A stretch of DNA of 40,259 nt from Saccharicrinis sp. (GTDB lineage: Bacteria > Bacteroidota > Bacteroidia > Bacteroidales > Marinilabiliaceae), in NCBI GenBank assembly GCA_024635555.1, contig JAGXIO010000045.1, positions 1-40,259 of the forward strand, in the 5' to 3' direction. The position numbers were made by a program, and so were the translations under genes. Of this stretch, positions 1 to 16,681 are shown piece after piece (position 1 is the first letter of the stretch; each line of letters opens with the position of its first letter). The notes under the pieces are model-generated. The model was not told the DNA's origin. It saw nothing but the letters and a program-made list of their open reading frames with translations, and did no database searches.

Positions 1-74
1 AAACAACCCATTTTTGTTAATGCAATCAACAAAGGTTATCGGGCATGATGAAGTAATTTAAAATTTCAGTAGAG

Positions 75-232
75 TTGGGTTAAAACCCAATTTGTTCTGC
101 GAATATTGCACGGCATTCCTGCCAGCCGGCAGGAATGCCGTGCCTAGTTATGAAAATTATATGATATAAACTTCATAATTAGACCCTGAATTCATCCCGG
201 GGTAATTGTGGATATACATCGGGCTTTAGCCC
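75..232. repeat. Three intergenic palindromes downstream of the first lacI
   Basis: Three hairpin-forming inverted repeats lie in the non-coding 255 bases before the lacI stop. At 75-90, TTGGGTT and AACCCAA pair around AA. At 108-143, two 16-base arms starting GCACGGCATT pair perfectly around a four-base loop. At 221-232, GGGCT and AGCCC pair around TT. None is followed by a convincing T run in the minus-strand direction, so I do not call them rho-independent terminators, although the 16-bp stem could still halt or protect transcripts. Similar GGGTT/AACCC palindromes recur at 10645 and 14812. Confidence 0.7.
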
Positions 233-255
233 AACATTATACAAATACAATACAC

Positions 256-1305
256 CTAATGCAGCCCCATGTTCTCGGCATTGATGATGTCGATGGGCTG
301 GTAGTTTTTTTTCTCGGGGATGGTATGGTGTGCCATAAAGTCGAATAAGTTTTTGAATGTTCTTTCGGCTTGTTCTATGGGGCGTTGGCCAATTAAAAAG
401 TTGATTACCCTTTGTTGCAAGAAGTAGCTATTTTTTCCGAACAGCTCGTATCCCACCAAAAATATTTTTTGGCGCTCATTTTTTTCGAGATACTCGGCCA
501 CCACATAGGTGCGCGAACCCGATACAAATACAGCACCTATGTTCGGGTTGCTGGTAAACACTTTATCCAAGTGCTCTTTAACTTGTTTAGATTCTGTACT
601 GGGAATTTCGACACTAATTTTAAGTCCTGTGTTTATACCGGCATCCATAAAATAACTCAAAAAACCCTGATTACGATGGTTGAGATGTTGGATATTTTCG
701 AGATTTTTGACAATGTTTACTATCAATATATCTTTATGGGCAGGAACGCCCATGTCAATTAAACTGGCAGCAACTCTGCCGGCCTGGTAAGCATCTTCGC
801 CAATAAAAGTAAGGTTATCGGTATTTTCTATATTGGTGTCAATAAAGGCATAGGGTATCTTTAGTTCATCTAATTGACAGCAAAGCTCTACCGATTCGTT
901 TTTAAGGATGGGTGCGATAATAACTCCCCCAGGCTGCCATTTGAGGAGGTTGTCGGCTTTCTTTTTAAAATCGTCAGCATCATGCATCTCATAAAAAAAG
1001 AACTCCAATTTGCACTGAAAAGGATAAATGGAATCCATGCCTTGCTCGATACCAATAGGATGCTTGCTCCAAAACAAATTATCGTCTTCGGAGAGGGGTA
1101 GGAGTACCCCAATTTTATATATGGTGGGCGATTTTAATGCACGGGCAGCTACGTTGGGCTTGTAATTGAGTTTTTTGGCAATGGTCAATATTTTGTTTTT
1201 GGTATCGGCCTTCACTTCCCCGCGGTTGTGTAATACACGGTCAACTGTACCAATAGAAACACCCGCCTTTTCGGCAATATCTTTTATCCTTACAATTTTG
1301 GTCAT
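256..1305 (-). CDS. LacI-family transcriptional regulator (sugar-binding type)
   Basis: 349-aa DNA-binding regulator. Residues 5-55 form the LacI helix-turn-helix (IKDIAEKAGVSIGTVDRVLH, then a hinge ending NVAARALKS), and residues 60-345 form a periplasmic-binding-protein-like sensor domain (GVLLPL, GVIIAPILK, FIGEDAYQAGRVAASLID). The GTVDRVLHNRG recognition helix is typical of Bacteroidota LacI proteins with a Peripla_BP_4-like sensor. It is the last gene of the minus-strand uronate cluster, 102 bp after dctM, with a strong hairpin in the gap, so it may be expressed both from the TRAP transcript and on its own. The ligand is unknown; a uronate, aldonate or pathway intermediate is expected from context. 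The ATG start has no competitor nearby. Confidence 0.92.
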   Translation of the reverse strand: MTKIVRIKDIAEKAGVSIGTVDRVLHNRGEVKADTKNKILTIAKKLNYKPNVAARALKSPTIYKIGVLLPLSEDDNLFWSKHPIGIEQGMDSIYPFQCKLEFFFYEMHDADDFKKKADNLLKWQPGGVIIAPILKNESVELCCQLDELKIPYAFIDTNIENTDNLTFIGEDAYQAGRVAASLIDMGVPAHKDILIVNIVKNLENIQHLNHRNQGFLSYFMDAGINTGLKISVEIPSTESKQVKEHLDKVFTSNPNIGAVFVSGSRTYVVAEYLEKNERQKIFLVGYELFGKNSYFLQQRVINFLIGQRPIEQAERTFKNLFDFMAHHTIPEKKNYQPIDIINAENMGLH

Positions 1306-1355
1306 TATCGTAATCTTGCCGTGGGTTTAGGTGATGTTTTCTTATCGAGGGTTTC

Positions 1356-1392
1356 TTACCGAGGGCATCGCTCCAAGCGATACCCTCGGTAA
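1356..1392. repeat. Long hairpin between dctM and lacI
   Basis: Two 17-base arms (TTACCGAGGGCATCGCT and its complement with one mismatch) flank the loop CCA. In RNA this is one of the most stable intergenic hairpins in the window. It sits 15 bp after the dctM stop codon on the minus strand. There is no U tract after it in that direction, so an attenuator or a 3'-end stabiliser that separates the transporter mRNA from the regulator is more likely than a classical terminator. Confidence 0.7.
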
Positions 1393-1407
1393 ACTAATTA
1401 ATTAAAA

Positions 1408-2868
1408 TTAAAATCCAAAAGTCTGGGGTAACCACAAGCTTAATTGAGGTATATAAGTTACCATTAACAGCACTAACACCATGGCCAAAAACATAGGTAG
1501 TAGTGGTTTTATCACCTTATCTATCTTAATATTAGCCACGCTACATCCTATAAATAGCACAGATCCAACTGGAGGAGTACACAAACCAACACTTAGGTTT
1601 AATACCATTATAATTCCGAAGTGAGTAGGGTCAATGCCCATGCTGGTTACAATAGGTAAAAATATGGGTGTAAAGATGAGTACCGCAGGGGTCATGTCCA
1701 TAAAAACCCCTACTATCAATAGTATTAAGTTGATGATGAGTAATATAACCATAGGGTTATCACTTATGCCCAACAAACCAGCACTCACATTCTGAGGAAT
1801 GTTTTCGTAGGCCATAATCCACGATAAACCGATACAAGTGGCAACTAGAAGCAAAACGATAGCGGTTGTTTTTACAGAACCCAATAAAATAGAACCCATA
1901 TCCGAAAGTTTGATTTCTCTGTAAATAAGAGATAGCACCAATGCATAAAGCACGGCAATAGCAGAAGCCTCGGTAGCCGTAAAAAAGCCACCTACAATAC
2001 CGCCAATAACCACGATAAGAAGAAACAGACTGGGCACTGCGTCCCACAATATTTTAAGTCCTCGCTTAATTGAAGCTGGGCGTCTGACAGAAAATCGTGC
2101 TATCAAAAATACCAGAAATAGAATGATCGTAGTCCATATAATATGGTAGGCTAGTACGGAATGCCCTTTGATGATATAAATTGCATAAACTGCTACAACA
2201 GTTGCAACAGCTCCGGCTAATACTTTAACTACAGCCAACACCGAAGCTTTAATACCACTTTCGTAACGAATTACCAGGGCCATGGAGATAAGCATAATGG
2301 CCAGACCGGTAAGTATTCCGGGTATGTATCCGGCCAGAAAAAGTGCTGTAATGGATACCCCTCCACTTGCGAGGGAGTACACAATAAGAATGTTGCTGGG
2401 CGGTATTGAAAGACCGGTTGTGGCAGATGAAATATTTACAGCAGCACTGAAGTTTTCATCGTAGCCGTCTTTTTTCATCTCGGGTCCCATAATGGAGCCA
2501 ATGGCAGAGGCCGATGCCGCAGCAGAACCCGAAATGGCGCCAAACAGCATGTTGGCAAATACGTTTACATAAGCTAATCCGCCAGACCATCGCCCCACAA
2601 GCACTTTGGCCAGGTTAATGAGCCGGATGGCTATACCACCGCTATTCATAATGTTTCCGGCGAGTATAAAAAATGGAATGGCCAATAAGGCAAAACTATC
2701 CAGACCGGTTGCCATGCGTTGGGCGTAGGTGGTAAATGCGGGTAAGGAATCGATACTTACCAACATGGTTAATATTCCGGATATACCTATGCTAAAAGCA
2801 ATGGGCACTCCGATGACCAATAAAAATATAAAGGAAAATACTAGAACAAAAATACCTAAGTAGTCCAT
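1408..2868 (-). CDS. dctM: TRAP transporter large permease DctM
   Basis: 486-aa inner-membrane protein, the ion-coupled transport subunit of a tripartite ATP-independent periplasmic transporter. Family features are clear: an N-terminal hydrophobic hairpin (GVPIAFSIGISGILTML), the conserved GAISGSAAASASAIGS loop near residue 110, SIPPSN near 155, and the DMTPAVLIFTPIFLPI segment near 390. It is longer than the usual 420-430 aa; the extra length falls at about residues 203-260 and adds two predicted hydrophobic segments before the ARFSVRRP loop. Its ATG overlaps the dctQ stop by one base (TAATG), a sign of translational coupling. The substrate is presumably an organic or sugar acid, inferred from the surrounding uronate genes. 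Confidence 0.93.
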   Translation of the reverse strand: MDYLGIFVLVFSFIFLLVIGVPIAFSIGISGILTMLVSIDSLPAFTTYAQRMATGLDSFALLAIPFFILAGNIMNSGGIAIRLINLAKVLVGRWSGGLAYVNVFANMLFGAISGSAAASASAIGSIMGPEMKKDGYDENFSAAVNISSATTGLSIPPSNILIVYSLASGGVSITALFLAGYIPGILTGLAIMLISMALVIRYESGIKASVLAVVKVLAGAVATVVAVYAIYIIKGHSVLAYHIIWTTIILFLVFLIARFSVRRPASIKRGLKILWDAVPSLFLLIVVIGGIVGGFFTATEASAIAVLYALVLSLIYREIKLSDMGSILLGSVKTTAIVLLLVATCIGLSWIMAYENIPQNVSAGLLGISDNPMVILLIINLILLIVGVFMDMTPAVLIFTPIFLPIVTSMGIDPTHFGIIMVLNLSVGLCTPPVGSVLFIGCSVANIKIDKVIKPLLPMFLAMVLVLLMVTYIPQLSLWLPQTFGF

Positions 2869-3341
2869 TATGCCAAATTTTCTGAGGGATGAATAATAAA
2901 ATAGATAGAATAGTATAACATGAGCAATCCGCTCAACGGCATAACCAAATAAACATAGCCTAAGGGTATTTGAAGCGCGGCCGACGACACATTAAACTGG
3001 AATCGTGTAATTACCAGCCACATTCCTCCCACTACCATTACCGAAAGAGAAAAGATGGCAATGCAGATATTAATGATGTTATTCAATTTTTTTTGATTGG
3101 ATATGGATGATTTTTGTATTAACAAGTCTATGGCCAAATGCTGGCGCTGACCGGCCACATAGGCAGCACCCAAAATGCCTACCCATATCAATAAAAATCC
3201 TGCCAGTTCATCCGTAAAGGAGCTTGGCGACGATAATACATAGCGGCTTAATACTTGCCATAGCACGTCAATAACCATGATGCCCATGATAAATATCAGC
3301 ACCATTTCAAGATATTTATCTAATGTTCGTTTAAATTTCAT
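2868..3341 (-). CDS. dctQ: TRAP transporter small permease DctQ
   Basis: 157-aa four-helix membrane protein that pairs with DctM. Hydrophobic segments lie near residues 12-32, 45-65, 88-110 and 128-148. The DctQ signature is present: SRYVL, then FTDELAGFLLIWVGILGAAY, then GQRQHLAIDLL. Length is normal for the family. It is 113 bp downstream of dctP on the same strand and its stop overlaps the dctM start, so the three form one transport operon. Substrate is not visible from the sequence. Confidence 0.92.
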   Translation of the reverse strand: MKFKRTLDKYLEMVLIFIMGIMVIDVLWQVLSRYVLSSPSSFTDELAGFLLIWVGILGAAYVAGQRQHLAIDLLIQKSSISNQKKLNNIINICIAIFSLSVMVVGGMWLVITRFQFNVSSAALQIPLGYVYLVMPLSGLLMLYYSIYFIIHPSENLA

Positions 3342-3454
3342 AGAATAATAAATTAGCGAAACCCCGGTGATAGGTGTAACTTTAAAACACTTTTCAGGTG
3401 CCTAGTTTCAGTTTTTTCAACACCGGTTTTATCTGTTTATAAAATAGAAAAATT

Positions 3455-4459
3455 CTAATTATTCACTTCCGTATCCTCAGGAACGTTAAGTATGCGTTGA
3501 ATTAAATCGTATATCTCGGGATTAGTTTTATATGATTCAAAGATACTCTCCACCTTTTTCATAAACGGTGTTTTGTCAGGGCGGATAATTTCAACACCAG
3601 CCTTGGCAACTTCACGGAGTGCTTCCTCTTCGGCTTGAGCCCACAAAATGCGCTCTTCGGGTACCGATGCATTTGCAGCTTCTTGCAACCATTCCTTTTC
3701 CTGATCGCTTAGTTTGTCCCAAACAACTGTACTGATAATAAGCACATCCGGAACGGCAGTATGTTCGTTTAAAGTGTATTTTTTACACACTTCGTAATGT
3801 CTAGAGGAATATAAACTGGGCGGATTATTCTCGGCACCGTCCACCACACCGCTCTGAAGGGCTGTATATAATTCGCCATACGAAATGGGAGTAGGAGAGC
3901 CACCCATAGACTTTACCATGCTCATGGCAGTTTGGCTTTTCATCACCCTTATTTTTAACCCACTCAAATCGTCGGGGGTGTTTATGGCTGTATTGATGGT
4001 GTAAAAACTCCTGAAACCGGCATCGTAAAAGCACAAGCCTTTAATATTAAATTGTTCAGTAGAGTTTAGGAACTCTTTGCCTATTTCGCCATCGAGCACT
4101 TTAAAAGCATGCTCTCTGGAGCGGAAAATATAGGGAAGACCCAGCACTTGATAGTTAGGAGTAAAGCTTTCCAGTACAGCAGCCGAAACTTTTGTAATTG
4201 CCAAACTACCTATCTGCAATAGTTCTACACATTCTTGCTCGCTACCTAATTGACCACTGGGGTAAATTTCCAATTTCATTTTTCCATTGGAAATTTCATC
4301 CAGTTTGTTGCCCATAAATACCATGGCCTTGTGCACAGGGTGCGAGGGATCCAGTCCGTGGGCGAGCTTTAAAGTGGTGTTTTTATTGTCCGTTTTACAT
4401 CCTCCAATAAAAAAAAGTGAAGCAAGCAACAATACCGAAGTTGTTAATTTTATGCGCAT
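3455..4459 (-). CDS. dctP: TRAP transporter substrate-binding lipoprotein DctP
   Basis: 334-aa extracytoplasmic solute-binding protein. I choose the internal ATG at 4459 because it begins directly with a lipoprotein signal (MRIKLTTSVLLLASLFFIGGC, lipidated Cys at residue 21); a longer ORF from 4489 would put ten polar residues in front and would run through the operator. DctP features include LAHGLDPSHPVHKAM, the ligand-binding arginine in GLKIRVMKSQTAM, and ALQSGVVDGAENNP. In this family the conserved arginine binds the carboxylate of an organic or sugar acid. Being a lipoprotein, it would be held at a membrane rather than free in the periplasm. It is the first gene of dctPQM and carries its own promoter and operator. 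Confidence 0.93.
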   Translation of the reverse strand: MRIKLTTSVLLLASLFFIGGCKTDNKNTTLKLAHGLDPSHPVHKAMVFMGNKLDEISNGKMKLEIYPSGQLGSEQECVELLQIGSLAITKVSAAVLESFTPNYQVLGLPYIFRSREHAFKVLDGEIGKEFLNSTEQFNIKGLCFYDAGFRSFYTINTAINTPDDLSGLKIRVMKSQTAMSMVKSMGGSPTPISYGELYTALQSGVVDGAENNPPSLYSSRHYEVCKKYTLNEHTAVPDVLIISTVVWDKLSDQEKEWLQEAANASVPEERILWAQAEEEALREVAKAGVEIIRPDKTPFMKKVESIFESYKTNPEIYDLIQRILNVPEDTEVNN

Positions 4460-4480
4460 TGGAATATAGTTTTGCGTGTT

Positions 4481-4535
4481 TTTGTGCAATCGTTTGTATT
4501 GTGAACAAATATAGCATTTGCTATGGTTATATCAA
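4481..4535 (-). promoter_or_regulatory. dctP promoter with LacI-type operator
   Basis: On the minus strand a perfect Bacteroidota -7 box, TATATTTG (complement of 4506-4513), is preceded after exactly 19 bases by TTG (complement of 4533-4535), a -33 element. Immediately downstream, across the expected start site, lies TTTGTGCAATCGTTTGTATT (plus-strand reading, 4481-4500). This differs at one base from the sequence in the promoter of the lacI gene at 13710. The centre CAATCGTTTG is an imperfect LacI-family half-site pair. Binding there would block initiation of dctPQM. That the two sites are bound by the same LacI protein is inference. Confidence 0.7.
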
Positions 4536-4588
4536 TAAATAATGGAATAAAAGGTAGATGTAATTTATTGTATATCATCACAACTGTT

Positions 4589-5866
4589 TTAATCCTTAAA
4601 ACGCTCTTTATACGCCCATAATCCAATGGCAGGGTTGGAAATAAAGTATATTTCTTCACCATCAGGAAGGGTATTGTAGCCTTCTTTTAACTTTTCGGGA
4701 TCGTACTTTTTAAGCATGGTTCCCAGATCGGCATATTTAAAGTTAACGGATTCAATCTCTTGCTGTGTAAGGTGTCCAGGGCAGTAGGTAATGCTAAACC
4801 TGTCTTCGGAGCTTCCGTGTATCAAGTGAGCTGCTGCGCCCAAGTTATCATTTAGCTCTGGGTTTTCTTTCAACATTTTTAAGGTATGCGGGGTGCCCCG
4901 ATATCCGTATTTACGTATCAAACGGTCTATTTCTTTATCTTCGCCAAACTCTTTTAAACCGGGAGCTAGTACAATCAATTCGCCTTTATCGGCCATGGCC
5001 ATACGGGTACGATAAACACTTTTGTTACCCAGCCAAGTACTTTTAAACTCCGAAGGATCGAGAAAAACTACTGCTTTTTTGATGGGTTTATCCAACATGG
5101 TAAAGTTTACCTGTAACGATAACTCGGCTGCTTTGGTAAATACCGAATAATCGTCGCCGATAAACAGACCGCGTGTTACGAGTAGCCCTGATTGTTTGTC
5201 GCGCCCTATTACGGTGTGCATATATACAATGGGCAAATGAGCGGTAAACTGCTCCGAAGCATAGTTTAAAAGCTCGCGGACTGGATTATTAGCTCTGCCC
5301 ATCACGTTTTCCATGCCATGCACCGCACCTACAAAATGGCTTTTGTTGATTCCTTCGGAACCGCCGGTGCCCACCAATATATTTTTGTTGTAGTTGGCCA
5401 TTCCAATTACCTCGTGGGGCACAACCTGACCTATGGATAAAATAAGGTCGTGTTCTCCTTCAGCCAATAATCTGTTAACCTGCGCGGGCCATTCATAATC
5501 TAAAGCGCCATTGGTGAGCTCCTTCATTTTTTCAGAAGAAACTGTGCCCAAGGTAACCACTTCGTTGCGCCAGTCGTGTACCCTAAAAAGATTCTCCGGT
5601 ACACCTTGGAACATATGTTCTTTTTCCTCTTGGGTCATGGCTACATGCGTGCCCAAGGCAGGTAATATATCACTTACTTTATCGCGATAAAAGTTATAGG
5701 CAAAGGTTGTTAGCTCACCCGCCCTGGAATGGAACCGGGTGATATCGGGTGGTATAATCAGCACTTTATTTCGATTGCCCAATTTTCCCAAGGCAATTTT
5801 TACACCTTCTTCTAAATCCTGCTTGCTTAAAGTTTCGCTTGTTCCGCCTCTCTCGTAATAAATCAT
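4589..5866 (-). CDS. LarA-family nickel-pincer racemase/epimerase homologue (DUF2088)
   Basis: 425-aa cytoplasmic protein of the lactate racemase superfamily. The N-terminal domain has IPPDITRFHS with Asp41, Thr43 and Arg44 in the DxTR arrangement, and GTHVAMT with His74. VVPHEVIGMANYNKN places His151 ten residues before Lys161, the same spacing as His174 and the cofactor-bearing Lys184 of Lactiplantibacillus LarA. The family uses a nickel-pincer nucleotide to invert 2-hydroxyacids; characterised homologues include lactate and malate racemases and a D-gluconate 2-epimerase. Position between the sugar-kinase and TRAP genes, beside uxuA, suggests a sugar-acid substrate rather than lactate, for example gluconate/mannonate. 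No larB, larC or larE cofactor genes lie in the window. Family is certain, substrate is not. Confidence 0.88.
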   Translation of the reverse strand: MIYYERGGTSETLSKQDLEEGVKIALGKLGNRNKVLIIPPDITRFHSRAGELTTFAYNFYRDKVSDILPALGTHVAMTQEEKEHMFQGVPENLFRVHDWRNEVVTLGTVSSEKMKELTNGALDYEWPAQVNRLLAEGEHDLILSIGQVVPHEVIGMANYNKNILVGTGGSEGINKSHFVGAVHGMENVMGRANNPVRELLNYASEQFTAHLPIVYMHTVIGRDKQSGLLVTRGLFIGDDYSVFTKAAELSLQVNFTMLDKPIKKAVVFLDPSEFKSTWLGNKSVYRTRMAMADKGELIVLAPGLKEFGEDKEIDRLIRKYGYRGTPHTLKMLKENPELNDNLGAAAHLIHGSSEDRFSITYCPGHLTQQEIESVNFKYADLGTMLKKYDPEKLKEGYNTLPDGEEIYFISNPAIGLWAYKERFKD

Positions 5867-5917
5867 AAGTAGTAGATTTTTATAAGTGATATTAAAAAGA
5901 CTAATTAACTTTTGAGA

Positions 5918-6065
5918 GGTTGTTATAAAACAACCTTTTTCATTCTTTGAAAAGAAAGCGTCAAAGGCAAGGCTCTCGAAGTTTTGAAACCAAGGAGTTT
6001 ACTTTTTGTAAATGACTGTTGCAAAAACAAGAGGAACGCAGCATTTGACGCTTTATTGCAAAGAA
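5918..6065. repeat. Intergenic element with 25-bp inverted ends and adjoining hairpin
   Basis: Between pfkB and the larA homologue there is a near-perfect inverted repeat: arms 5943-5968 and 6041-6065 share TTCTTTG and AAAGCGTCAAA with two mismatches and one extra base, enclosing about 72 bases. The right arm ends three bases from the pfkB stop codon. Beside it, GGTTGTT (5918-5924) pairs with AACAACC (5929-5935), followed on the plus strand by five T. The hairpin has terminator shape only on the plus strand, where there is no gene to terminate. The element could be a small non-autonomous insertion or a structured mRNA spacer. Confidence 0.65.
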
Positions 6066-6068
6066 TAT

Positions 6069-7148
6069 TTATCGGGTTACACGAGCATTCCCTTCCCAAA
6101 TACTCCATACCATATCTTCATCGGTAGGCTGTGCGTAATCGGTTAAAAAGGTAGTTGCCATGGCGCCTGTGGCCCATGCAAATTGTGGCCATTTAGCTGT
6201 TTCCCAACCTTTAAGGATAGAATATAGCAGGCCGCCCACAAATCCGTCGCCACCGCCTATGCGATCGAGCACATGGATAGGACGAGGTTTTACTACCTGC
6301 CATTCATCACCGGTAAGCACAATGGCTCCCCATAGATGTTCGTTTACACTGATTACTTCACGTAAAGTTGTGGCAAAAACAGATGCATTAGGGAATGTTT
6401 GCTTAACGGTTTTTATCATTCCTTTAAAGCCTTCAATTTTATCTTCAATGCCTTTACCTCCGGCTTCGGGGCCTTTAATGTTTAAGCAAAGCTGAAAATC
6501 TTCTTCGTTGCCAATTAAGATGTCCGAAACAGATGCTATCTCGGTAAATATTTCGTGCAATTCTTTTTCCCTGTTTTTCCAAAATGAAGCCCTGTGGTTG
6601 AGATCGAAAGAAATACGGGTTCCGTATTTTTTGGCTGTTCTGGCAATCTGCAAGCAAAAGTTGCTCGATTCGGGCGATAAGGCTGCAATTAATCCTGATA
6701 AATGAACAATCTGCACGCCTTCTTCTTTGAAAATCCGTTCCAGATCAAAATCCTTCACATCTAAGGTGCGTCCAACTTCGCCGGCACGATCGTTCCACAC
6801 ACGTGGTCCGCGCGAGCCGTAACCACTGTCGGCAATGTTTATCTGATGACGAAAACCCCATGGATCGCCTTGCTCCACTTCAGGACCTTCGTAATCCATA
6901 TGTCGCGCCTTAAGATTACTCTTAATAAATTGAGCAATAGGGCTACCTTTTACAAAAGAGGTAAGCACTTTTACAGGTAATCCAAGGTACGATGCGATAC
7001 TTGCAACGTTGGTTTCGGCACTGGTAGCGTACATTTTATAGGTATCGCTTGAATGAACAGGCTGCCCGTTTTCGGGCGTTATACGGATGCCCATGCTAGT
7101 AGCTACTAGCATGGCATATGTACAATCCTTTTTAAGTTGTATAGACAT
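6069..7148 (-). CDS. PfkB-family carbohydrate kinase, substrate unassigned
   Basis: 359-aa ribokinase-fold kinase that would phosphorylate a sugar or sugar acid with ATP. The C-terminal ATP/catalytic motif is DRIGGGDGFVGG at about residues 295-306, with Asp301 as the predicted base; ILIGNEEDF near 210 is also typical. It resembles the kdgK of this cluster in the region around FDLNHR, GNEEDF and the terminal RVTR (RVSR in kdgK), so it is probably a diverged paralogue. The N-terminal substrate loop GGGEANVA of kdgK is ATSAETNVA here, which argues for a different substrate. It lies between uxuA and the LarA homologue, same strand. The substrate may be a product of that enzyme. Confidence 0.85.
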   Translation of the reverse strand: MSIQLKKDCTYAMLVATSMGIRITPENGQPVHSSDTYKMYATSAETNVASIASYLGLPVKVLTSFVKGSPIAQFIKSNLKARHMDYEGPEVEQGDPWGFRHQINIADSGYGSRGPRVWNDRAGEVGRTLDVKDFDLERIFKEEGVQIVHLSGLIAALSPESSNFCLQIARTAKKYGTRISFDLNHRASFWKNREKELHEIFTEIASVSDILIGNEEDFQLCLNIKGPEAGGKGIEDKIEGFKGMIKTVKQTFPNASVFATTLREVISVNEHLWGAIVLTGDEWQVVKPRPIHVLDRIGGGDGFVGGLLYSILKGWETAKWPQFAWATGAMATTFLTDYAQPTDEDMVWSIWEGNARVTR

Positions 7149-7193
7149 AACTTCTTCTTTTTTATGAATACTAACGGCAATAAAACGCAGTAA

Positions 7194-8414
7194 CTACTGA
7201 AATATAACTCCACTCCGTTCGATGCCTAATTCCAAGCCTCTTAATTCGGCTTGTCCTCTAAGCAATCCAAGTGCAGAGTAACCAGGATTTGTCTTTTTAC
7301 GCAAATCGTCCAGTATGGTGTGTCCATGATCTGCACGCATTGGTATTTCAATATCGATACGATTGGCGGCGGAACGTTTTTGCTGCTCCTTTAAAACGGC
7401 AACAATTACATTGTACATGTCAACATTACCTTGCAGGTGACCGGCCTCGTGAAAGCTACCGTCACCATCGCGTTGGGTACTGCGTAGATGTAAAAAATTA
7501 ATTTTCTCGCCCAAACGGTTTATGATGCCAGGCAGATCGTTATCGGGGCGCACACCTAATGAACCGGTGCACACGCAAAGTCCATTATAAATGCTATCTA
7601 CTACATTAATAATAAACTGCAAATCGGTCTCGGTGCTTACTACGCGAGGTAAACCAAAAAGTGAAACCGGTGGATCATCAGGATGTATGGCCAGGCGCAC
7701 TCCCGACTCTATTGCAACGGGTACAATTTGTAGTAGAAAGTACTTTAGGTTTTCGCGATATTGATTTGGGCTGATGTTGTCATATCCGGCAAGACGCTCT
7801 TTAAATTCTTTTATTGTGTATCCCTCTTGTCCGCCGGGCAGTCCGGCAATGATGTTTTTTTCGAGGATATATCTTTTTTGGGCATCCATGGATTCAAATT
7901 TCCTTTTGGCTGCTTCAATTTGTTGGGGAGTATAATCCTTTTCTGCACCCTTGCGCTCTAGCATATAAAGGTCGAAAGCAATATATTCGCTCATGTCGAA
8001 CTGTAGCGCTTTGGCTCCATCGGCCAGTTCCATCTCTAGGTTGGTACGTGTCCAATCTACCACCGGCATCCAGTTATAGGTTAAAACAGGTATGCCCACT
8101 TTGCCTACGTTGCGGATGCTTTGCTTGTATTTTTCTATCCACATGTCGCGTGTAGGTAATCCTTGCTTAATATCTTCGTGCACAGGAATACTTTCTATTA
8201 CGCTCCAATTTAAGCCCCTTGATTTTGGCGGAAATACAGATTCGTCAATTTCGATATGCTTTTTGCGCTCGGCGATAGCCGCTTCTGTCCATACTTCGCC
8301 AATAGGCACCTCATGTAGGGCAGTTACGATTCCTGTAGCTCCTGCCTGACGTATATCGGCCAGTGTTACCGGGTCTGTTGGGCCATACCAGCGCCATGTT
8401 TGTTCCATTGCCAT
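7194..8414 (-). CDS. uxuA: Mannonate dehydratase UxuA
   Basis: 406-aa enzyme that removes water from D-mannonate to give 2-keto-3-deoxy-D-gluconate, in the cytoplasm. The start TWRWYGPTDPVTLADIRQAG, followed by GATGIVTALHEVP, is the UxuA hallmark; further on are AIHPDDPP, CVCTGSLG and HLRSTQRDGDGSFHEAGHL, which contain the His/Cys/Asp metal ligands of the family. A longer reading frame reaches 8612, but its first 66 codons run through an intergenic hairpin and have no homology to UxuA. The ATG at 8414 (with another at 8408) gives the normal length. It sits between the mannonate oxidoreductase and pfkB genes. Confidence 0.96.
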   Translation of the reverse strand: MAMEQTWRWYGPTDPVTLADIRQAGATGIVTALHEVPIGEVWTEAAIAERKKHIEIDESVFPPKSRGLNWSVIESIPVHEDIKQGLPTRDMWIEKYKQSIRNVGKVGIPVLTYNWMPVVDWTRTNLEMELADGAKALQFDMSEYIAFDLYMLERKGAEKDYTPQQIEAAKRKFESMDAQKRYILEKNIIAGLPGGQEGYTIKEFKERLAGYDNISPNQYRENLKYFLLQIVPVAIESGVRLAIHPDDPPVSLFGLPRVVSTETDLQFIINVVDSIYNGLCVCTGSLGVRPDNDLPGIINRLGEKINFLHLRSTQRDGDGSFHEAGHLQGNVDMYNVIVAVLKEQQKRSAANRIDIEIPMRADHGHTILDDLRKKTNPGYSALGLLRGQAELRGLELGIERSGVIFQ

Positions 8415-8808
8415 ATTGTGTGTTTTTTGTTTCTTAATTTTATTTTTTGAAAGGCTTACAACCACCCCGTCTGATATTTCGCACCTCAATATCATCCACC
8501 CCGCCTTAAAAAGGCGGGGAGTCGTTGCAAAAGCTACCTCCGTGAACAAGTCAAATTCACAACGCTGTATCCAAGATCCCTCTTGTTTTTTAAATGCGAG
8601 TGATTCATCCAATCAGCTAAAGGTTTGTTGATTACTGTTTACTGCTTACTGCTTACTGCTTACTGATTACTGCTTACCGATCACTGTTTACTGCTTTCCC
8701 GTCAAAAATTAAATTTTAATAAGGTGACGGGATGTTGAGTGAAACGAAATCCCGATGCTTCCAATTTATTTACTTCGGGGTCACTTCGCTCCAACTGATC
8801 ACTGAAAG
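8415..8808. repeat. Gene-free spacer with hairpins and a 7-bp tandem repeat
   Basis: The 394 bases between uxuA and the mannonate oxidoreductase gene hold no credible gene. A hairpin at 8499-8519 pairs CCCCGCCTT with AAGGCGGGG around AAA. At 8632-8694 nine units of a seven-base repeat, consensus TTACTGC, run in tandem with variation in the last base and a few internal changes. At 8728-8754 CGGGAT pairs with ATCCCG over a 15-base loop. The tandem array lies in the upstream leader of uxuA on the minus strand, so copy-number change there could alter its expression; that is a possibility only. Confidence 0.75.
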
Positions 8809-9651
8809 CTAAACTCCCGAGTACGCGCTAAACCCACCATCCACAGGTACTACGATCCCGGTGATAAAGTTGCTCCAGTCGGATAACAAATAAAGCATTG
8901 TTCCGCATAATTCTTCGGGTTCGCCATAGCGTTCCATGGGCGTGTTACGAATGATTTTTTCACCACGAGCCGTTGCTTCGCCTGTTTTTTCGTCAACCAA
9001 TAAAAAACGGTTTTGATTGGTTAATAAAAAACCGGGGGCAATGGCATTTACTCGAATACCTGTTTTGGCAAAGTGAACCGCCAGCCATTGTGTAAAGTTG
9101 TTAACCGCTGCTTTTGCTGCCGAATAAGCAGGAATCTTGGTCAATGGGGTAAAGGCATTCATCGATGAGATATTGATAATAGAGCCTTGTTTTTTGTCCA
9201 ACATATCTTTGCCAAATACCATTGAAGGAAGCAATGTACCTTGAAAGTTAAGTGCAAAAACCTTGTCAAAACCCTCCATTTGCAAACCAAAAAAGGTATC
9301 ATCCAAATTGTCCAATTCCTTCTCGGTTAAAAATTCGGCTTTGGTGGTTGCCGATGCAGCATTTCCTCCGGCACCGTTTACCAGGTAATCAACCGTTCCC
9401 AATTTATCATGGATTGCACTTCTGGCCTCTTCTAGCGAGTTTTTATCAAGCACATTGGCCGAAATACCTACCGAAGGAGTTCCGTATTCTGCAATAATTT
9501 CCTGTGCTACTTTTTGTGCAGCCTCAAGGTTTAAATCCAGAATGGCTGTTTTTACGCCTTGTGAAGCCAGTGCTTTAGCCATTGTTGAACACAATACGCC
9601 GCCACCGCCTGTGATTACGGCTACTTTATCTTTTAAATTTAAATTTGTCAT
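8809..9651 (-). CDS. uxuB: SDR-type D-mannonate oxidoreductase (fructuronate reductase)
   Basis: 280-aa short-chain dehydrogenase, probably interconverting D-fructuronate and D-mannonate with NAD(P)H. The nucleotide loop is TGGGGVLCS (residues 14-22), NGAGG replaces NNAG near 92, the catalytic Ser is 162 or 163 (NISSMNAF) and the YxxxK pair is Tyr176/Lys180 (AYSAAK). A 20-30 residue insertion after NGAGG (to about 128) and a lid rich in Asn/Arg (TNQNRFLL) match SDR mannonate oxidoreductases of Bacteroidota rather than the unrelated enterobacterial UxuB. Placement between uxuA and eda, with uxaC in the cluster and no other candidate for this step, supports the call. A different polyol or keto-acid substrate remains possible. 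Confidence 0.85.
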   Translation of the reverse strand: MTNLNLKDKVAVITGGGGVLCSTMAKALASQGVKTAILDLNLEAAQKVAQEIIAEYGTPSVGISANVLDKNSLEEARSAIHDKLGTVDYLVNGAGGNAASATTKAEFLTEKELDNLDDTFFGLQMEGFDKVFALNFQGTLLPSMVFGKDMLDKKQGSIINISSMNAFTPLTKIPAYSAAKAAVNNFTQWLAVHFAKTGIRVNAIAPGFLLTNQNRFLLVDEKTGEATARGEKIIRNTPMERYGEPEELCGTMLYLLSDWSNFITGIVVPVDGGFSAYSGV

Positions 9652-9658
9652 TTCTTTT

Positions 9659-9848
9659 AGATAATAGAATGTTAGATAATAGACTTTTAGACAATAGACT
9701 TATAGACAATAGACTTATAGATAATAGACTTATAGATAATAGACTTATAGATAATAGACTTATAGATAATAGCTTATAGATGATGAGATATGCTACCTAT
9801 CTCTTAATCTCTTATCTCATAATCTCCTATCTCATAATCTCTTATCTA
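9659..9848. repeat. 15-bp tandem repeats between eda and the oxidoreductase gene
   Basis: Eight units with a 15-base period, consensus AGATAATAGACTTAT, occupy 9659-9777; the first two and the last are diverged or one base short. From about 9799 to 9848 a second set with a 15-base period and consensus ATCTCTTATCTCATA continues to within a base of the eda stop codon. The whole spacer is low complexity and non-coding. Tandem identity makes it prone to slippage. It is too short-period and has no spacers, so it is not a CRISPR array. Confidence 0.85.
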
Positions 9849-9849
9849 G

Positions 9850-10518
9850 TCATCTTAATTCATTAATGTTGTTTATCAATTCCTTAACCATTTGGGTTAG
9901 GGCGTTCCAATCTTTGTTGGCCATAATATCTTTGGGGAATAAAGCAGAGCCCATACCTACACAAGTTACACCTGCATCAAACCATTGTTTTAGGTTGGCC
10001 TTAGACGTGTCCACACCACCCGTGGGCATAATGTCGGTCCAGGGCATGGGTGCTTTTACAGCTTTTACAAATGATGGTCCACCCACTTCGGATGCAGGGA
10101 ACATTTTTACTACTTCGGCACCTAGCTCCTGCGCTTTGTTTATTTCGCTGATGGTTCCGCAACCTGGCGACCACATAATTTTGCGACGGTTACAAATCCT
10201 GGCCATGTTTTCGTTCAACAAGGGCGAAACGATAAAATTACTTCCCAGTTGAATATACAATGCAGTTGTGGCTTCATCTACTATTGAACCTGCACCCAAA
10301 ATCATTCCAGGTAGGTTTTTGAGGGCATATTTGTTTAGCTCTCCAAAAACTTCGTGGGCAAAATCGCCACGGTTCACAAATTCGAACACACGGATACCTC
10401 CATCGTAACACGATTTTAGCACCGCTTTGCTTACTTCAATATCGGCATTAAAAAAAACTGGAACTACGCCTGTTTCCTTCATTGCCTGAAAAACCTCTAT
10501 TCTTGAATATTTAGCCAT
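9850..10518 (-). CDS. eda: KDPG aldolase (bifunctional 4-hydroxy-2-oxoglutarate aldolase type)
   Basis: 222-aa class I aldolase that splits 2-keto-3-deoxy-6-phosphogluconate into pyruvate and glyceraldehyde-3-phosphate. The fold markers are GVVPVFF at 17-23, the catalytic glutamate Glu46 in RVFEFVNRG, LGAGSIVDE near 74, the SPGCGT phosphate-side loop near 117, the Schiff-base Lys138 in VVKMFPAS, and MPTGGVD near 165. FEFVNRG is the form seen in Bacteroidota proteins, in place of EVTLRT in enterobacteria. It is the last common step for both branches of the cluster. It lies downstream of kdgK on the same strand. Confidence 0.95.
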   Translation of the reverse strand: MAKYSRIEVFQAMKETGVVPVFFNADIEVSKAVLKSCYDGGIRVFEFVNRGDFAHEVFGELNKYALKNLPGMILGAGSIVDEATTALYIQLGSNFIVSPLLNENMARICNRRKIMWSPGCGTISEINKAQELGAEVVKMFPASEVGGPSFVKAVKAPMPWTDIMPTGGVDTSKANLKQWFDAGVTCVGMGSALFPKDIMANKDWNALTQMVKELINNINELR

Positions 10519-10866
10519 TATGTTATGTAATTTTTGATGGTGAAAAAATACTGTAACTTAAAGGGTATGTGCTTCGTTCCGGTGCTGGGTAACTTAAAGG
10601 GTTTATCAAGTTTGTGGTGCACCGGATTGGTACTCCCTTATTTTCCCCGGGTTGAAACCCGGGGTTAAACATGTTTAACCCCTATGGGGTATAGGTGCAA
10701 TACTGAGTTCCACAGCGTTTAGCTTTTTTGAAAATTATTACAGACAGACTGCTCGTCGCTTAAAGACGTGCAGGAGTCCTTAACCCTATTGCGAAACTCT
10801 GCCAGACGTATCCACCGATTACCGAAAACTGAATACTGAATACCGATTTACCGAGTGTCCTTAACT
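10519..10866. repeat. Gene-free spacer with palindromes and direct repeats
   Basis: The 348 bases between kdgK and eda contain no gene. GTAACTTAAAGGGT occurs at 10553-10566 and again at 10589-10602. CCCCGGGTTGAAACCCGGGG (10645-10664) is a 9-bp-arm palindrome that overlaps a second perfect 22-base palindrome at 10661-10682 with half-site GGGGTTAAACA; the two could form alternative hairpins. From about 10776 to 10819 the sequence resembles the 3' end of kdgK (10857-10900), as if that end had been duplicated and decayed. No promoter box is obvious. Confidence 0.7.
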
Positions 10867-11904
10867 CTACCTCGAAACCCTGCCGGAAGCGTCGCCACCC
10901 ATTAACTTTTCTACTTCCTCAACAGTAACAAGGTTGTAGTCGCCATGGATGGTGTGCTTTAAGCAAGAGGCGGCAGTGGCAAAATTCAGTGCTTTTTGGT
11001 CGTCGCCTTCGTAAGTTAATAAACCATATATTAATCCACCCATAAAGGAGTCGCCACCGCCTACACGGTCCACAATGTGGGTTATTTGGTAGGTTGGCGC
11101 CTGATACAATGTATTGCCATCGTAAAGCACACCCGACCATGAATTATGGTTGGCATTGACGGAGCCGCGCAATGTGGTAATCACTTTTTTAACCCTTGGG
11201 AATTTGGCCATAATTTGTTGCGAAACACTTCTATATGCTTCTGCATCAACATGTCCATCGGTTACATCTACACCTTCGGGATGAATGTCTAACATCATGG
11301 CGGCATCTTCCTCGTTACCTAAAACAATATCGCAACCTGCCACCAATTCGGGCATCACTTGGCCACCTGTTTTACCGTATTTCCAAAGATTTTTGCGGAA
11401 ATTTAAATCGGTTGAAACAGTAACATCCAGTTTGTTGGCTACCTTTATAGCTTCTAAACAAGCATCGGCTGCACCTTGCGAAACGGCAGGGGTAATGCCT
11501 GTCCAATGGAAAAAATCTGCATCTTTCAAAACCTCTTCCCAGTTTACCATTCCTGGTTTTATCTCGGAAAAGGCAGAGTGGGCTCTATCGTAAACCACTT
11601 TGCTGGCGCGGGCTACGGCTCCTGTCTCTAGGTAATAAGTACCTAACCTGTCACCTCCGTAAACAATATTATCGGTATTTACAGCGTGCTTTTTTAATTC
11701 CATCTCACAGGCTCCAGCAATGTCGTTTTTGGGTAAGCGTGTTACAAACGATACATCTATGCCATAGTTGGCCAATGAAACAGCTACGTTTGCCTCGCCT
11801 CCTCCGTAGGAAGCCTTAAATTCTGTTGCTTGCGAAAAACGCTGATATTGAGGTGTTGCAAAACGGAGCATGATCTCTCCAAAGGTGACTACTTTTTTTG
11901 CCAT
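10867..11904 (-). CDS. kdgK: 2-keto-3-deoxygluconate kinase KdgK
   Basis: 345-aa PfkB-family kinase that phosphorylates 2-keto-3-deoxygluconate at O6 to make KDPG. Residues 5-15 (VVTFGEIMLRF) and the substrate loop GGGEANVAVSLA (34-45) are KdgK-like; STDLNFRKNLW near 165 and GNEEDA near 196 line the active site. The catalytic motif DRVGGGDSF spans 279-287 with Asp285 as base. The protein ends in ASGRVSR, an ending common to Bacteroidota KdgK proteins. It receives product from both UxuA and KduD and feeds Eda. Start ATG at 11904 is 39 bp downstream of uxaC. Confidence 0.94.
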   Translation of the reverse strand: MAKKVVTFGEIMLRFATPQYQRFSQATEFKASYGGGEANVAVSLANYGIDVSFVTRLPKNDIAGACEMELKKHAVNTDNIVYGGDRLGTYYLETGAVARASKVVYDRAHSAFSEIKPGMVNWEEVLKDADFFHWTGITPAVSQGAADACLEAIKVANKLDVTVSTDLNFRKNLWKYGKTGGQVMPELVAGCDIVLGNEEDAAMMLDIHPEGVDVTDGHVDAEAYRSVSQQIMAKFPRVKKVITTLRGSVNANHNSWSGVLYDGNTLYQAPTYQITHIVDRVGGGDSFMGGLIYGLLTYEGDDQKALNFATAASCLKHTIHGDYNLVTVEEVEKLMGGDASGRVSR

Positions 11905-11943
11905 GATTAGTGTTGTTATATTATATTTATGAAAAAAGTAATG

Positions 11944-13350
11944 TTATAAATTAAAATAAGTTTTTGCGTTTTTATAAGATATTCCTTCAATGAGGTTTTT
12001 TAATATATCCTTGTCATTAGGAATTAATCCTCGTTCCACTTCTTTGCCCACATAGTTGCATACGATGCGTCGGAAATACTCGTGTCGAGGATAGGATAAA
12101 AAGCTGCGCGAATCGGTTACCATGCCCACAAAGCGACTTAAAAGGCTAAGTGAAGAGTAATCTTCGAGGTGTCGCTCCATACCCGATTTTTGATCGAGAA
12201 ACCACCATGCTGCGCCATAAGTTACCTTGGAAGCCGAGGTGCCATCCACAAAGTTTCCGCACATGGTTAGCAGCATCTGATTATCAGCTGGATTTAAGTT
12301 ATATAAAATGGTTTGTGCTAGTTGGTTGGTACTATCCAGTAGATTTAAAAACTGCGACATTTTTTTAGCAGGTTGCGGATCATTGATGGAGTCGAAACCG
12401 GTATCTGCACCCAATACATTGAACATGCGGGTATTGTTGTTTCGCAATGCCCCTACATGAAACTGTTGGGTCCATCCACGCTTGTGATTCATCTGCGCCA
12501 ATGTGGCCATTACTGCCGTGTTATATTTTTCTTTTTCTTCGGTTGTGATGGTTTTACCTTCCATCAGCTTAGTAAATATGCCCGAAACTTCGGCATCGGT
12601 ATAAGGCGCATAGAAAAATCGGTCGGGGCCACTATCCGAAATACGTGCACCCATACTATGGAAAAATGCATGCCTGCTGTCCAACGCACTGATTAATTGC
12701 GCATAGGTACTAATAGAGATGTTGGCTACTTTGCCTAATTTTTCAATATAACTTATGAAAGAAGCGGCATTTTCCGTTTTTAAAACGGCATCGGCCCTAA
12801 ATGATGGGAGTACTTTAACTTCAAATCCATCATCAATTAATTTCTGATGGTATTCCAACGAATCGGCGGGATCGTCGGTGGTTCCGATCATCTCCACATT
12901 CATCCGTTTGATAAAGTTTTTGGTGCTGAACTCCGGCGACTTGAGCATTTCTGCCGTATCGTTATATATTTTTTCGGCTGTTGCGGGCGATAACAACTCG
13001 TTAATATTAAAACAACGAGCCAATTCAAGGTGGGTCCAATGATAAAGTGGGTTAGCCACAGTATTGGGAACTGTTTGTGCCCATTTCATAAATTTTTCCT
13101 TATCTGTGGAGTCGCCCGTGATAAATTTTTCGTTGATGCCATTAATTCGCATCGCGCGCCATTTATAATGATCGCCGCCCAGCCACATATCGCCAAGGTT
13201 GTCGTACTTGTAATCCTCGGCAATGGCTTTGGGATCTAAATGGCAATGGAAATCAATAATAGCTTGATGAGCTGAATAATTGTGGTACAGCTCACTTGCT
13301 GTATCGTTTTCTAATGCAAAATCGTTGTGAATAAAATGTTTTTTTACCAT
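11944..13350 (-). CDS. uxaC: Uronate isomerase UxaC
   Basis: 468-aa amidohydrolase-fold enzyme converting D-glucuronate to D-fructuronate (and D-galacturonate to D-tagaturonate). The N-terminal metal-site motif IIDFHCHLDP, the later GTTDDPADSL and SFRADAVL segments, and QFHVGALRNNNTRMF near residue 310 identify it, and GADTGFDSI follows. I start it at 13350, where MVKKHFIHNDFALENDTA matches the family; the ORF could extend 13 codons upstream to 13389, but that tract is Asn/His-rich and unlike UxaC. It is the first gene of the ten-gene minus-strand series. Because altronate enzymes are absent nearby, glucuronate is the likelier in vivo substrate. Confidence 0.96.
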   Translation of the reverse strand: MVKKHFIHNDFALENDTASELYHNYSAHQAIIDFHCHLDPKAIAEDYKYDNLGDMWLGGDHYKWRAMRINGINEKFITGDSTDKEKFMKWAQTVPNTVANPLYHWTHLELARCFNINELLSPATAEKIYNDTAEMLKSPEFSTKNFIKRMNVEMIGTTDDPADSLEYHQKLIDDGFEVKVLPSFRADAVLKTENAASFISYIEKLGKVANISISTYAQLISALDSRHAFFHSMGARISDSGPDRFFYAPYTDAEVSGIFTKLMEGKTITTEEKEKYNTAVMATLAQMNHKRGWTQQFHVGALRNNNTRMFNVLGADTGFDSINDPQPAKKMSQFLNLLDSTNQLAQTILYNLNPADNQMLLTMCGNFVDGTSASKVTYGAAWWFLDQKSGMERHLEDYSSLSLLSRFVGMVTDSRSFLSYPRHEYFRRIVCNYVGKEVERGLIPNDKDILKNLIEGISYKNAKTYFNL

Positions 13351-13709
13351 CATTTTTGTGTTATTGTGGTCATTTCCGTTAACGAACACGAAAGTACTTA
13401 CTTTTTTTTGATTTCCAAATTTTTCAACTTGAAATTGTATTATTGGGTGAGAAATAATACAAAAACTATTTATTCTAACCTAATTGCTTAATAATAAATA
13501 TTTAAAAGATTGAATAATCACAAATAAAGCAATGTATTAACATCTTCTTAGTCTATATTTTTAAACAGTAAAAGGTAAGTGTGAGAATATATTGCTTCTG
13601 TGAAGTAATATAAATAGTTACGTATTAAAAGACGGTTAAAAATAAAATAAAGTGATTAAAATGTTGTATTTTGTGCAAACGTTTGTATTTTTGTATTCAG
13701 ATTGAAAAA
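13351..13709. other. Divergent intergenic region between uxaC and lacI
   Basis: These 359 AT-rich bases contain no ORF of interest and form the control region for the two divergent halves of the uronate cluster. Towards lacI there is a clear promoter with operator at 13664-13693. Towards uxaC I find no full TAnnTTTG box, so the uxaC promoter is not located. A short stretch near 13400-13430 is rich in T on the plus strand but has no hairpin. Confidence 0.6.
13664..13693 (+). promoter_or_regulatory. lacI promoter overlapped by a CAAACGTTTG operator
   Basis: A perfect -7 box TATTTTTG at 13686-13693 is preceded after 19 bases by TTG at 13664-13666. TTTGTGCAAACGTTTGTATT at 13670-13689 fills the space between the two boxes and runs into the -7 box; its centre CAAACGTTTG (13676-13685) is a perfect 10-base LacI-type palindrome. 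The only close relative I see in the window is in the dctP promoter at 4481-4500 (19 of 20 bases the same). The expected transcription start is about 10 bases before the ATG, giving a very short leader. Autoregulation by the adjacent LacI protein is the simplest reading. Confidence 0.72.
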
Positions 13710-14717
13710 ATGAAGAGGATTACGATAAACGATATAGCTAAAAATTTAGGTGTTACGGCATCAACAGTTTCGCGTGCCTTGGCCGGGAATACTAGGGTAA
13801 GCCTTAGAACCCGTGAGTTGGTGTTGGCTAAGTCCAAAGAATTGGGATATCAACAAAATGTACTTGCGTCGTCGTTGCGCAAAGGTACCAGTGGCACCAT
13901 CGGTATGATTGTTCCTCGTATCAACCGTCATTTTTTTAGTAATGTGATTAGTGGGGTGGAGGAAATATTGAATCCGACAGGTTATACTTTGTTGATAACT
14001 CAAAGTGGAGAGAACCTAGCAAAAGAACAAAAGGCAGTTGATATGCTTTTGGCCAATCATGTAGGTGGCATTATTATTTCACTTTCGGTTCAGACTCAAA
14101 GCTATGAGCATATTCAGAGAGCGATAGATCGTGGCGTTCCGCTGGTACAATTCGATCGTATTAATCCTGATATTAAAAGCTCAAAGGTGATAAACGATAA
14201 TTTTACCGGAGCATATTTGGCCACCAAACATTTAATAAAAAGCGGATATAAGGAAATTGGTCATTTTACCGGAACTTTGAGCCTTAATGCTTATGGTGAA
14301 CGCTACAGAGGTTATGCCAAAGCGATGAGCGAATCGGGTTTGAAAATAAACGAGTCTTTTGTATATAAGGATACCATTACCCGCGAAGCAGGTTACAATG
14401 CAATTGTGAATGCACTAAAAGAAGAAAACAAACCCGATGCGGTTTTTTGTGCAGGAGATTACGCAGCTCTTGGGGTTTTGGATGGATTAAAAGAAATGGG
14501 GATAAAGGTGCCGGATGAATTTGGTGTGGTAGGATTTGCCAATGAGCCTTTTTCAGAACTCATACATCCCACCCTTACCACCGTAGAGCAAAATGCTTTT
14601 GAAATGGGTGTGCGCGTGGCTACAGCCATGATAAAAAACATGGAAGGAAAGTATGATCAGGAGATAGAGACGATTTCTACCCGTCTGATAGTCCGGGATT
14701 CGTCGTGGAGAGGCTAA
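13710..14717 (+). CDS. LacI-family transcriptional regulator of the uronate cluster
   Basis: 335-aa repressor with a LacI helix-turn-helix at residues 3-25 (ITINDIAKNLGVTASTVSRA), a hinge helix ending LASSLRKG near 55, and a GalR/LacI sensor domain (GMIVPRINRHFFSNV, VPLVQFDRI, DAVFCAGDYAALGVL, GVVGFANEP). A frame open from TTG at 13671 would place 13 codons inside the operator and promoter, so the ATG at 13710, starting MKRITIND, is the true start. It is followed by kduI, kduD and the DUF4861 gene on the same strand. The operator in its own promoter is repeated before dctP. A uronate-derived effector such as KDG is likely, as in other uronate LacI regulators; not proven. Confidence 0.93.
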   Translation: MKRITINDIAKNLGVTASTVSRALAGNTRVSLRTRELVLAKSKELGYQQNVLASSLRKGTSGTIGMIVPRINRHFFSNVISGVEEILNPTGYTLLITQSGENLAKEQKAVDMLLANHVGGIIISLSVQTQSYEHIQRAIDRGVPLVQFDRINPDIKSSKVINDNFTGAYLATKHLIKSGYKEIGHFTGTLSLNAYGERYRGYAKAMSESGLKINESFVYKDTITREAGYNAIVNALKEENKPDAVFCAGDYAALGVLDGLKEMGIKVPDEFGVVGFANEPFSELIHPTLTTVEQNAFEMGVRVATAMIKNMEGKYDQEIETISTRLIVRDSSWRG

Positions 14718-15705: not shown

Positions 15706-15752
15706 GCTTTTACGGAATAAAAAGGATCACTACGTAATCTTCTTTTTTCATC

Positions 15753-15791
15753 CACTAATTACACGAAAAATAAAAATTCGTGTAATTAGTG
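15753..15791. repeat. Perfect 15-bp-arm hairpin between kduI and kduD
   Basis: CACTAATTACACGAA (15753-15767) and its exact complement TTCGTGTAATTAGTG (15777-15791) enclose the nine-base loop AAATAAAAA. It begins 47 bases after the kduI stop. It is AT-rich and lacks a following T run. Placement inside an operon suggests it tunes the relative levels of KduI and KduD mRNA or is a dispersed intergenic repeat. Confidence 0.7.
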
Positions 15792-15864
15792 AAATTCGAG
15801 GACAAATTAAAAAAACAGCGCAGCTGTTAAATAGAATATCAAATTATTATCTAAATTCTAAAAA

Positions 15865-16662: not shown

Positions 16663-16681
16663 AACAACACTTAAAACCCCT

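Follow-up and report, generated by a model that had tools for sequence, protein, structure and literature searches.

The window analysed here is a 40,259-nucleotide stretch of DNA from Saccharicrinis sp., which forms contig C115 in an assembly (genome label G000) of 259 contigs totalling 5.33 Mb. Its minus strand carries a hexuronate catabolism cluster that includes a LarA homologue of group 18 (LarAH18) and a second kinase of the PfkB family (PfkB2); the function of this pair is the subject of the present analysis. The original prediction on this DNA had picked out the same two genes, and both were recovered as intact minus-strand open reading frames (ORFs) where it had placed them, in the gene order that it had given: a tripartite ATP-independent periplasmic (TRAP) transporter, the LarA homologue, the PfkB kinase and UxuA. 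The cluster, with a divergent regulator, reads as follows.

256 to 1305, minus strand: LacI-family regulator at the cluster end (PF00356, 59 bits; Peripla_BP_4, 78.4 bits)
1408 to 2868, minus strand: TRAP large permease DctM (PF06808, 380.2 bits)
2868 to 3341, minus strand: TRAP small permease DctQ (PF04290, 96.3 bits)
3455 to 4489, minus strand: TRAP solute-binding protein DctP, uronate-type (PF03480, 277 bits)
4589 to 5866, minus strand: LarAH18, proposed D-mannonate/D-gluconate 2-epimerase (425 aa; NF052594; Pfam Lar_N, 47.2 bits, cut-off 23.3)
6069 to 7148, minus strand: PfkB2, proposed gluconate kinase (359 aa; PF00294, 67.3 bits, cut-off 25.8)
7194 to 8408, minus strand: UxuA, D-mannonate dehydratase, competing branch (TIGR00695, 499.9 bits, cut-off 199.55; match from ORF residue 69)
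8809 to 9651, minus strand: short-chain dehydrogenase/reductase (SDR), D-mannonate oxidoreductase with UxuB function (NF006132, 410.7 bits, cut-off 281)
9850 to 10518, minus strand: KHG/KDPG aldolase (NF005499, 360.2 bits, cut-off 275)
10867 to 11904, minus strand: KdgK-like PfkB kinase (PF00294, 125.2 bits; NF041633, 484.8 bits, under its cut-off of 700)
11944 to 13389, minus strand: UxaC, glucuronate/galacturonate isomerase (NF002794, 604.9 bits, cut-off 387)
13671 to 14717, plus strand: second LacI-family regulator, divergent (PF00356, 44.2 bits)

All genes of the isomerase route from hexuronate to 2-keto-3-deoxygluconate (KDG) phosphate are present in this cluster.

LarAH18 is the single Lar_N match of genome G000. 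It scored 660.8 bits against NF052594, the model of the "nickel-dependent putative hexonate epimerase" (LarA group 18, cut-off 500), and failed the lactate racemase model NF033504, with 29.3 bits for a cut-off of 460. Its predicted structure (predicted local distance difference test, pLDDT, 89.1) was closest to GntE2 of Thermotoga maritima, 4NAR (E 3.1e-29, TM 0.80); the next-best match was a lactate racemase (E 1.8e-16), and malate racemases were also among the following matches. The NF052594 score and the 4NAR-like model both bear out the earlier preference for D-gluconate 2-epimerase over lactate racemase as the closer relative of this enzyme. To place the residues, we used the alignment to GntE2 and the numbering found in excerpts of PMC7583248. 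The rows compared come from a wider set of 101 loci, which includes the 80 nearest among at least 587 relatives and is skewed toward the kin of the window. Kept in all 101 group-18 rows are the catalytic residues D41, H74, H151 and K282 (LarA D72, H108, H174 and K298) and the residues binding the nickel-pincer nucleotide, R44, K161 and H177 (LarA R75, K184 and H200); D41, R44, H74, H151 and K161 had already been named in the original prediction. E152 and V153 of the specificity loop and W278 are likewise invariant in the 101 rows, 80 of which were fetched by peptide patterns spanning residues 146-153 and 273-280; for H151, E152, V153 and W278 the independent test is therefore the remaining 21 rows only (the window and 20 loci picked with the hidden Markov model). 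K275, a guess at the catalytic lysine from a constant offset, was discarded: the GntE2 alignment gives K282, and K275 varies (97 K, 4 R).

According to the excerpts of PMC7583248, an E-V/S loop together with W marks LarA groups 18, 19 and 20, and group 18 is hypothesised to be a hexonate epimerase. We took as the GntE specificity set the E-V (or E-S) loop, a W in helix 11 and an A or V in helix 14. The part of PMC11770544 that was available gives E, V, A and H as the specificity residues of gluconate epimerase. The pair A346-H347 is invariant in group 18, but the GntE2 alignment does not fix it as the A-H positions of that signature, and the complete E-V-A-H signature was dropped for this reason. 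Judged by family, residues and predicted fold, LarAH18 is most likely a nickel-pincer-dependent D-mannonate/D-gluconate 2-epimerase, and we refer to it as a putative one.

The partners of LarAH18 were sought in a sample of 395 Bacteroidota genomes, 22 of which hold a LarAH18 over the NF052594 cut-off. The gnd gene (TIGR00873), coding for 6-phosphogluconate dehydrogenase, was present in all 22, and in 19 of them it lay at most 1.4 kb downstream of LarAH18 on the same strand. The exceptions are G014, where the distance is 8.3 kb, and G176 and G000, where gnd is on another contig. UxuA (TIGR00695) was found in 7 of the 22 genomes and undetected in 15, and it adjoined LarAH18 in one, G000 itself. 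Linkage to uxuA in relatives was the check put forward along with the route first proposed, from gluconate to mannonate and on to UxuA, and the outcome goes against that direction: the steady partner is gnd, not uxuA. Such a partner argues for the direction from mannonate to gluconate and 6-phosphogluconate. As for zwf, the glucose-6-phosphate dehydrogenase gene whose pathway would feed Gnd, it was found in 15 of the 22 genomes and undetected in G014, G031, G093, G124, G263, G333 and G361. All seven have gnd, at most 1.2 kb from LarAH18 in six of them and 8.3 kb away in the seventh. This means that 6-phosphogluconate would need another source there.

Similar counts were made on 59 distinct loci, the subset of the wider set flanked on each side by 5 kb or more, with neighbours counted up to 6.5 kb away on the same strand. 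L058 and L138 are one contig and were counted once; the window, with a downstream flank of 4591 bases, lies outside the 59. Near LarAH18, gnd was found at 52 loci, a UxuB-like SDR at 53, and UxuA at 4. PfkB2 was seen at 26 loci, other PfkB kinases at 15, a PfkA-type protein at 6 and an HAD protein at 7.

The gnd gene of G000 was located at C48:3953-5398 (764 bits), directly preceded by a PdxB-type gene (451.2 bits, cut-off 434). Many relatives have these two genes together after LarAH18, and the G000 gnd is up to 76.8% identical to theirs (gnd of L094). This match of pair and sequence suggests that a single cluster was divided in G000. A PdxB-type 4-phosphoerythronate dehydrogenase adjoins gnd at L145:2713-5398 and in 25 of the 59 LarAH18 loci. 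4-Phosphoerythronate strongly inhibits 6-phosphogluconate dehydrogenase, and for this reason the PdxB-type enzyme beside gnd might be a metabolite repair enzyme.

PfkB2 has an orthologue (E ≤ 1e-60) in 6 of the 395 genomes (G000, G031, G051, G124, G302 and G345), every time upstream of LarAH18 and no more than about 1 kb away; in G302, an HAD gene stands between the two. The kinase had been described as an orphan, a label that we rejected, as PfkB2 travels with LarAH18 in 6 genomes out of 6. Each of the 26 PfkB2-bearing loci among the 59 also has gnd, and 3 have UxuA. At the genome level, UxuA was undetected in four of the six (G031, G124, G302 and G345), and zwf was also undetected in G031 and G124. 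A tree was built of 82 PfkB proteins; its bootstrap had not settled, and long branches were flagged. In it, the 41 PfkB2 proteins formed one clade (100/100) apart from KdgK, 17 KdgK-type proteins formed another (100/100), and most other LarAH18-adjacent kinases fell in a third (18 rows, 99/92). Two or more lineages of PfkB kinases thus occupy the position next to LarAH18.

This separate clade agrees with the earlier claim that the partner kinase is not the usual KdgK, and the alignment confirmed the change of substrate loop reported with it, GGGEANVA in KdgK versus TSAETNVA in PfkB2. The active-site GGGD motif of PfkB2 (G298-G299-G300-D301) is invariant in 24 rows. Its predicted model (pLDDT 87.2) is closest to the PfkB/KDG kinases 4GM6 and 2AFB. 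Against the KdgK model NF052444, PfkB2 scored 31.2 bits for a cut-off of 400; the KdgK-like gene of the window scored 40.1 bits, also under it, and such cut-offs were abandoned as a means to tell KdgK from PfkB2, since the KdgK-like gene fails them too. PfkB2 belongs to neither the FGGY (gntK, TIGR01314) nor the P-loop (TIGR01313) gluconokinase family, its listed matches up to E 0.01 being of PfkB type only. None of the 22 LarAH18 genomes has a P-loop gluconokinase over the cut-off, and none an FGGY gluconokinase over the strict cut-off. In G302, which has PfkB2, neither UxuA nor FGGY gluconokinase gave a match, and nothing reached the cut-off for P-loop GntK. The distribution and clade of PfkB2 point to a partner kinase of LarAH18, most likely a gluconate kinase. 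Our search of the open literature turned up no report of a PfkB-family gluconate kinase.

At some loci, a PfkA/pyrophosphate-phosphofructokinase-like protein and HAD proteins are found near LarAH18 instead of PfkB (L131:7813-9995, L051, L053, L072, L092, L097 and L106). The PfkA-type protein reached 367.5 bits to PRK14072. The PfkA-type/HAD pair is possibly a second kinase replacement.

We consider it fairly probable that uronate is converted to mannonate, gluconate, 6-phosphogluconate and finally ribulose-5-phosphate by way of LarAH18 and PfkB2. The basis of this pathway is gene families, residues, neighbourhoods and the presence or absence of genes, from which we infer its substrates (that of the kinase included), its direction and its flux. 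Hexuronate would be taken up by the TRAP transporter. The DctP protein has 4MHF among its best solved relatives and aligns with uronate-binding TRAP proteins; 4MHF binds glucuronate and galacturonate, according to excerpts of PMC7660916, and arginine and asparagine ligand contacts appear, from the alignment, to be common to DctP and these binders. UxaC would then isomerise the hexuronate, and the SDR oxidoreductase would reduce fructuronate to D-mannonate. The original prediction had mannonate made without UxaC and the oxidoreductase, but the cluster contains both genes, whose products would supply it. LarAH18 would epimerise mannonate at C2 to D-gluconate, PfkB2 would phosphorylate gluconate to 6-phosphogluconate, and Gnd, encoded on C48 in G000 and beside LarAH18 in most relatives, would yield ribulose-5-phosphate and NADPH. 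UxaC, the UxuB-type reductase, the epimerase, the candidate kinase and Gnd are all encoded in G000. Mannonate would have a second exit in this genome, through UxuA, KdgK and the aldolase, with LarAH18 at the branch point.

Several observations weigh against this pathway. Among the 59 loci, 7 have no gnd nearby and 12 have none of the tracked kinase kinds, and these counts are made on related sequences. The cluster of the window itself holds UxuA but not gnd, and the assembly has a contamination of 2.35%. KduI is found in 14 and KduD in 11 of the 59 loci, and both occur in the window, so that KDG would be present and PfkB2 might act as a KDG kinase. FGGY matches under the cut-off exist in 18 of the 22 genomes, including G000, G031, G051, G124 and G345, and are possible gluconokinases. 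More generally, excerpts of PMC7583248 caution that genomic context is not always predictive of the activity of LarA homologues. The last point concerns the nickel-pincer cofactor. Of the three genes larB, larC and larE, which the original prediction expected in the genome, the first and the last are present (LarB 182.5 bits, cut-off 175; LarE 278.5 bits, cut-off 150; both searched for in G000), and larC is truncated. The LarC ORF, at L002:867-1757 (C247), has 296 aa and matches positions 1-231 of the 375 of the LarC profile; it resembles LarC1, lacks the C-terminal half and contains a His-rich stretch, and the next gene lies 105 bases on, on the opposite strand. LarC (PF01969) was detected in 8 of the 22 LarAH18 genomes, with no match in the other 14. 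Either the profile misses divergent LarC proteins, or nickel is inserted by other means; a LarC so rarely detected, and truncated in G000, casts doubt on how nickel is inserted into LarAH18.

The two central steps could also occur in reverse order, with PfkB2 phosphorylating mannonate first and LarAH18 then acting as a 6-phosphomannonate 2-epimerase. The linkage of kinase, epimerase and gnd fits this order equally well, and both activities are known from extracts of Lactobacillus suebicus (PMC6978723, in excerpts). We nevertheless regard it as unlikely: the assayed LarA homologues from the nearest groups, GntE1, GntE2 and LarAH15, act on unphosphorylated mannonate and gluconate (excerpts of PMC7583248 and PMC11770544), and group 18 has the loop and the W in common with them.

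It is likewise improbable that PfkB2 is a mere passenger, a second kinase for KDG or a KDG isomer, with the gluconate made by LarAH18 phosphorylated by another kinase. Its separate clade and altered GGGEANVA loop, its tight link to LarAH18 and gnd, and the KdgK-type gene found alongside it in 11 of 41 loci all speak against such a role. In its favour, the nearest solved structures are KDG-kinase-like, the KduI/KduD neighbours would supply KDG, and the two arginines of the acid-binding region in KDG kinase are apparently kept in the alignment.

A route in which the cell imports gluconate, or another aldonate, LarAH18 epimerises it to provide UxuA with mannonate, and PfkB2 phosphorylates a product seems to us quite doubtful. 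UxuA does adjoin PfkB2 and LarAH18 in the window, and the three stand together in 9 of the 101 loci (window counted); KdgK and the aldolase are present, and epimerisation is reversible. Against this stand the rarity of UxuA in LarAH18 genomes, the gnd linkage, the alignment of DctP with uronate binders, and UxaC and UxuB within the cluster. Because epimerisation is reversible, gluconate use through UxuA is possible in this one genome, G000. Finally, a lactate racemase serving growth on lactate, a reading that draws on distant LarA homology, was ruled out as extremely improbable by the model score and the specificity loop (E-V, not F-F), and the uronate neighbours also speak against it.

Other features were observed around these genes. 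KduI and a KduD-like SDR (14869-16662) lie on the divergent side with the second LacI gene, and with a DUF4861 protein (14869-17869 for the three) they adjoin that gene and likely form an unsaturated-uronate branch. An ORF of 1002 aa at 22347-25355 gave no Pfam match at E 0.001. A scan of positions 1-14000 for promoters and terminators gave no excess over shuffled sequences (31 promoter-like sites versus a mean of 36.5, and 11 terminator-like sites versus a mean of 13.2). In the relatives, a Gfo/Idh/MocA-like oxidoreductase, named by eye from its sequence, often follows LarAH18 (16 of the 59 loci, e.g. L102:11625-12621). Distant relatives of LarAH18, with about 158-189 bits and under the cut-off, occur in other Bacteroidota (L035 in G179, and L036-L042); the L035 match has one in-frame TGA. 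The 5 genomes sampled from the order of the window all lacked LarAH18, yet many of the nearest named loci (the 80 best, from at least 587) carry the label Bacteroidales. The distribution is patchy, perhaps owing to transfer.

A hexuronate-to-pentose-phosphate route was proposed in Thermotoga by Rodionova et al. 2012, as reported in excerpts of PMC6978723, and the route described here is a variant of it rather than the wholly new system first envisaged. GntE2 of T. maritima (LarAH20) is a LarA-superfamily mannonate/gluconate epimerase whose gene lies with those for UxaC, Gnd and a mannonate oxidoreductase, and it is the nearest fold and the nearest solved sequence to LarAH18. The two nevertheless belong to different groups, 20 and 18, and are about 26% identical where their structures align. 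In the kinase slot, PfkB-family proteins stand in place of the gluconate kinase of Thermotoga, GntK, a member of the FGGY family. In L. suebicus, a uronate isomerase route is similarly joined to 6-phosphogluconate dehydrogenase, but with the kinase acting before the epimerase. With KdgK (2AFB, 1V19), PfkB2 has fold and PfkB family in common; it differs by its separate clade, its changed substrate loop and its coexistence with a KdgK-type gene. As to group 18, to which LarAH18 belongs, the hexonate epimerase hypothesis is already in PMC7583248, excerpts of which hold no link to gnd or PfkB and no reported group-18 activity.

The group-18 epimerase family, its hexonate substrate and a Thermotoga-type pathway are thus already proposed. 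What is new, as far as our open-literature searches reached, is that group 18 is linked to gnd and to a PfkB kinase, that UxuA and LarC often go undetected, and that a PfkB protein thereby becomes a candidate gluconate kinase. We put forward more tentatively that a new PfkB gluconate (or mannonate) kinase and the group-18 epimerase replace UxuA in many Bacteroidota, with nickel supplied in many of these bacteria without a standard LarC, by a truncated LarC or a new insertase. On this reading, the route would extend to contigs bearing the labels Verrucomicrobiota, Ignavibacteria, Planctomycetota and Spirochaetales. The 14 LarAH18 genomes without detectable LarC raise a question of nickel-pincer biosynthesis. 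If the pathway is true, it would provide candidate genes linking uronate catabolism to 6-phosphogluconate, where those for the L. suebicus activities are not identified in the excerpts of PMC6978723. It would also give a candidate new kinase specificity within the PfkB family, and a substrate and a pathway for a LarA group present in at least 587 public genome stretches.

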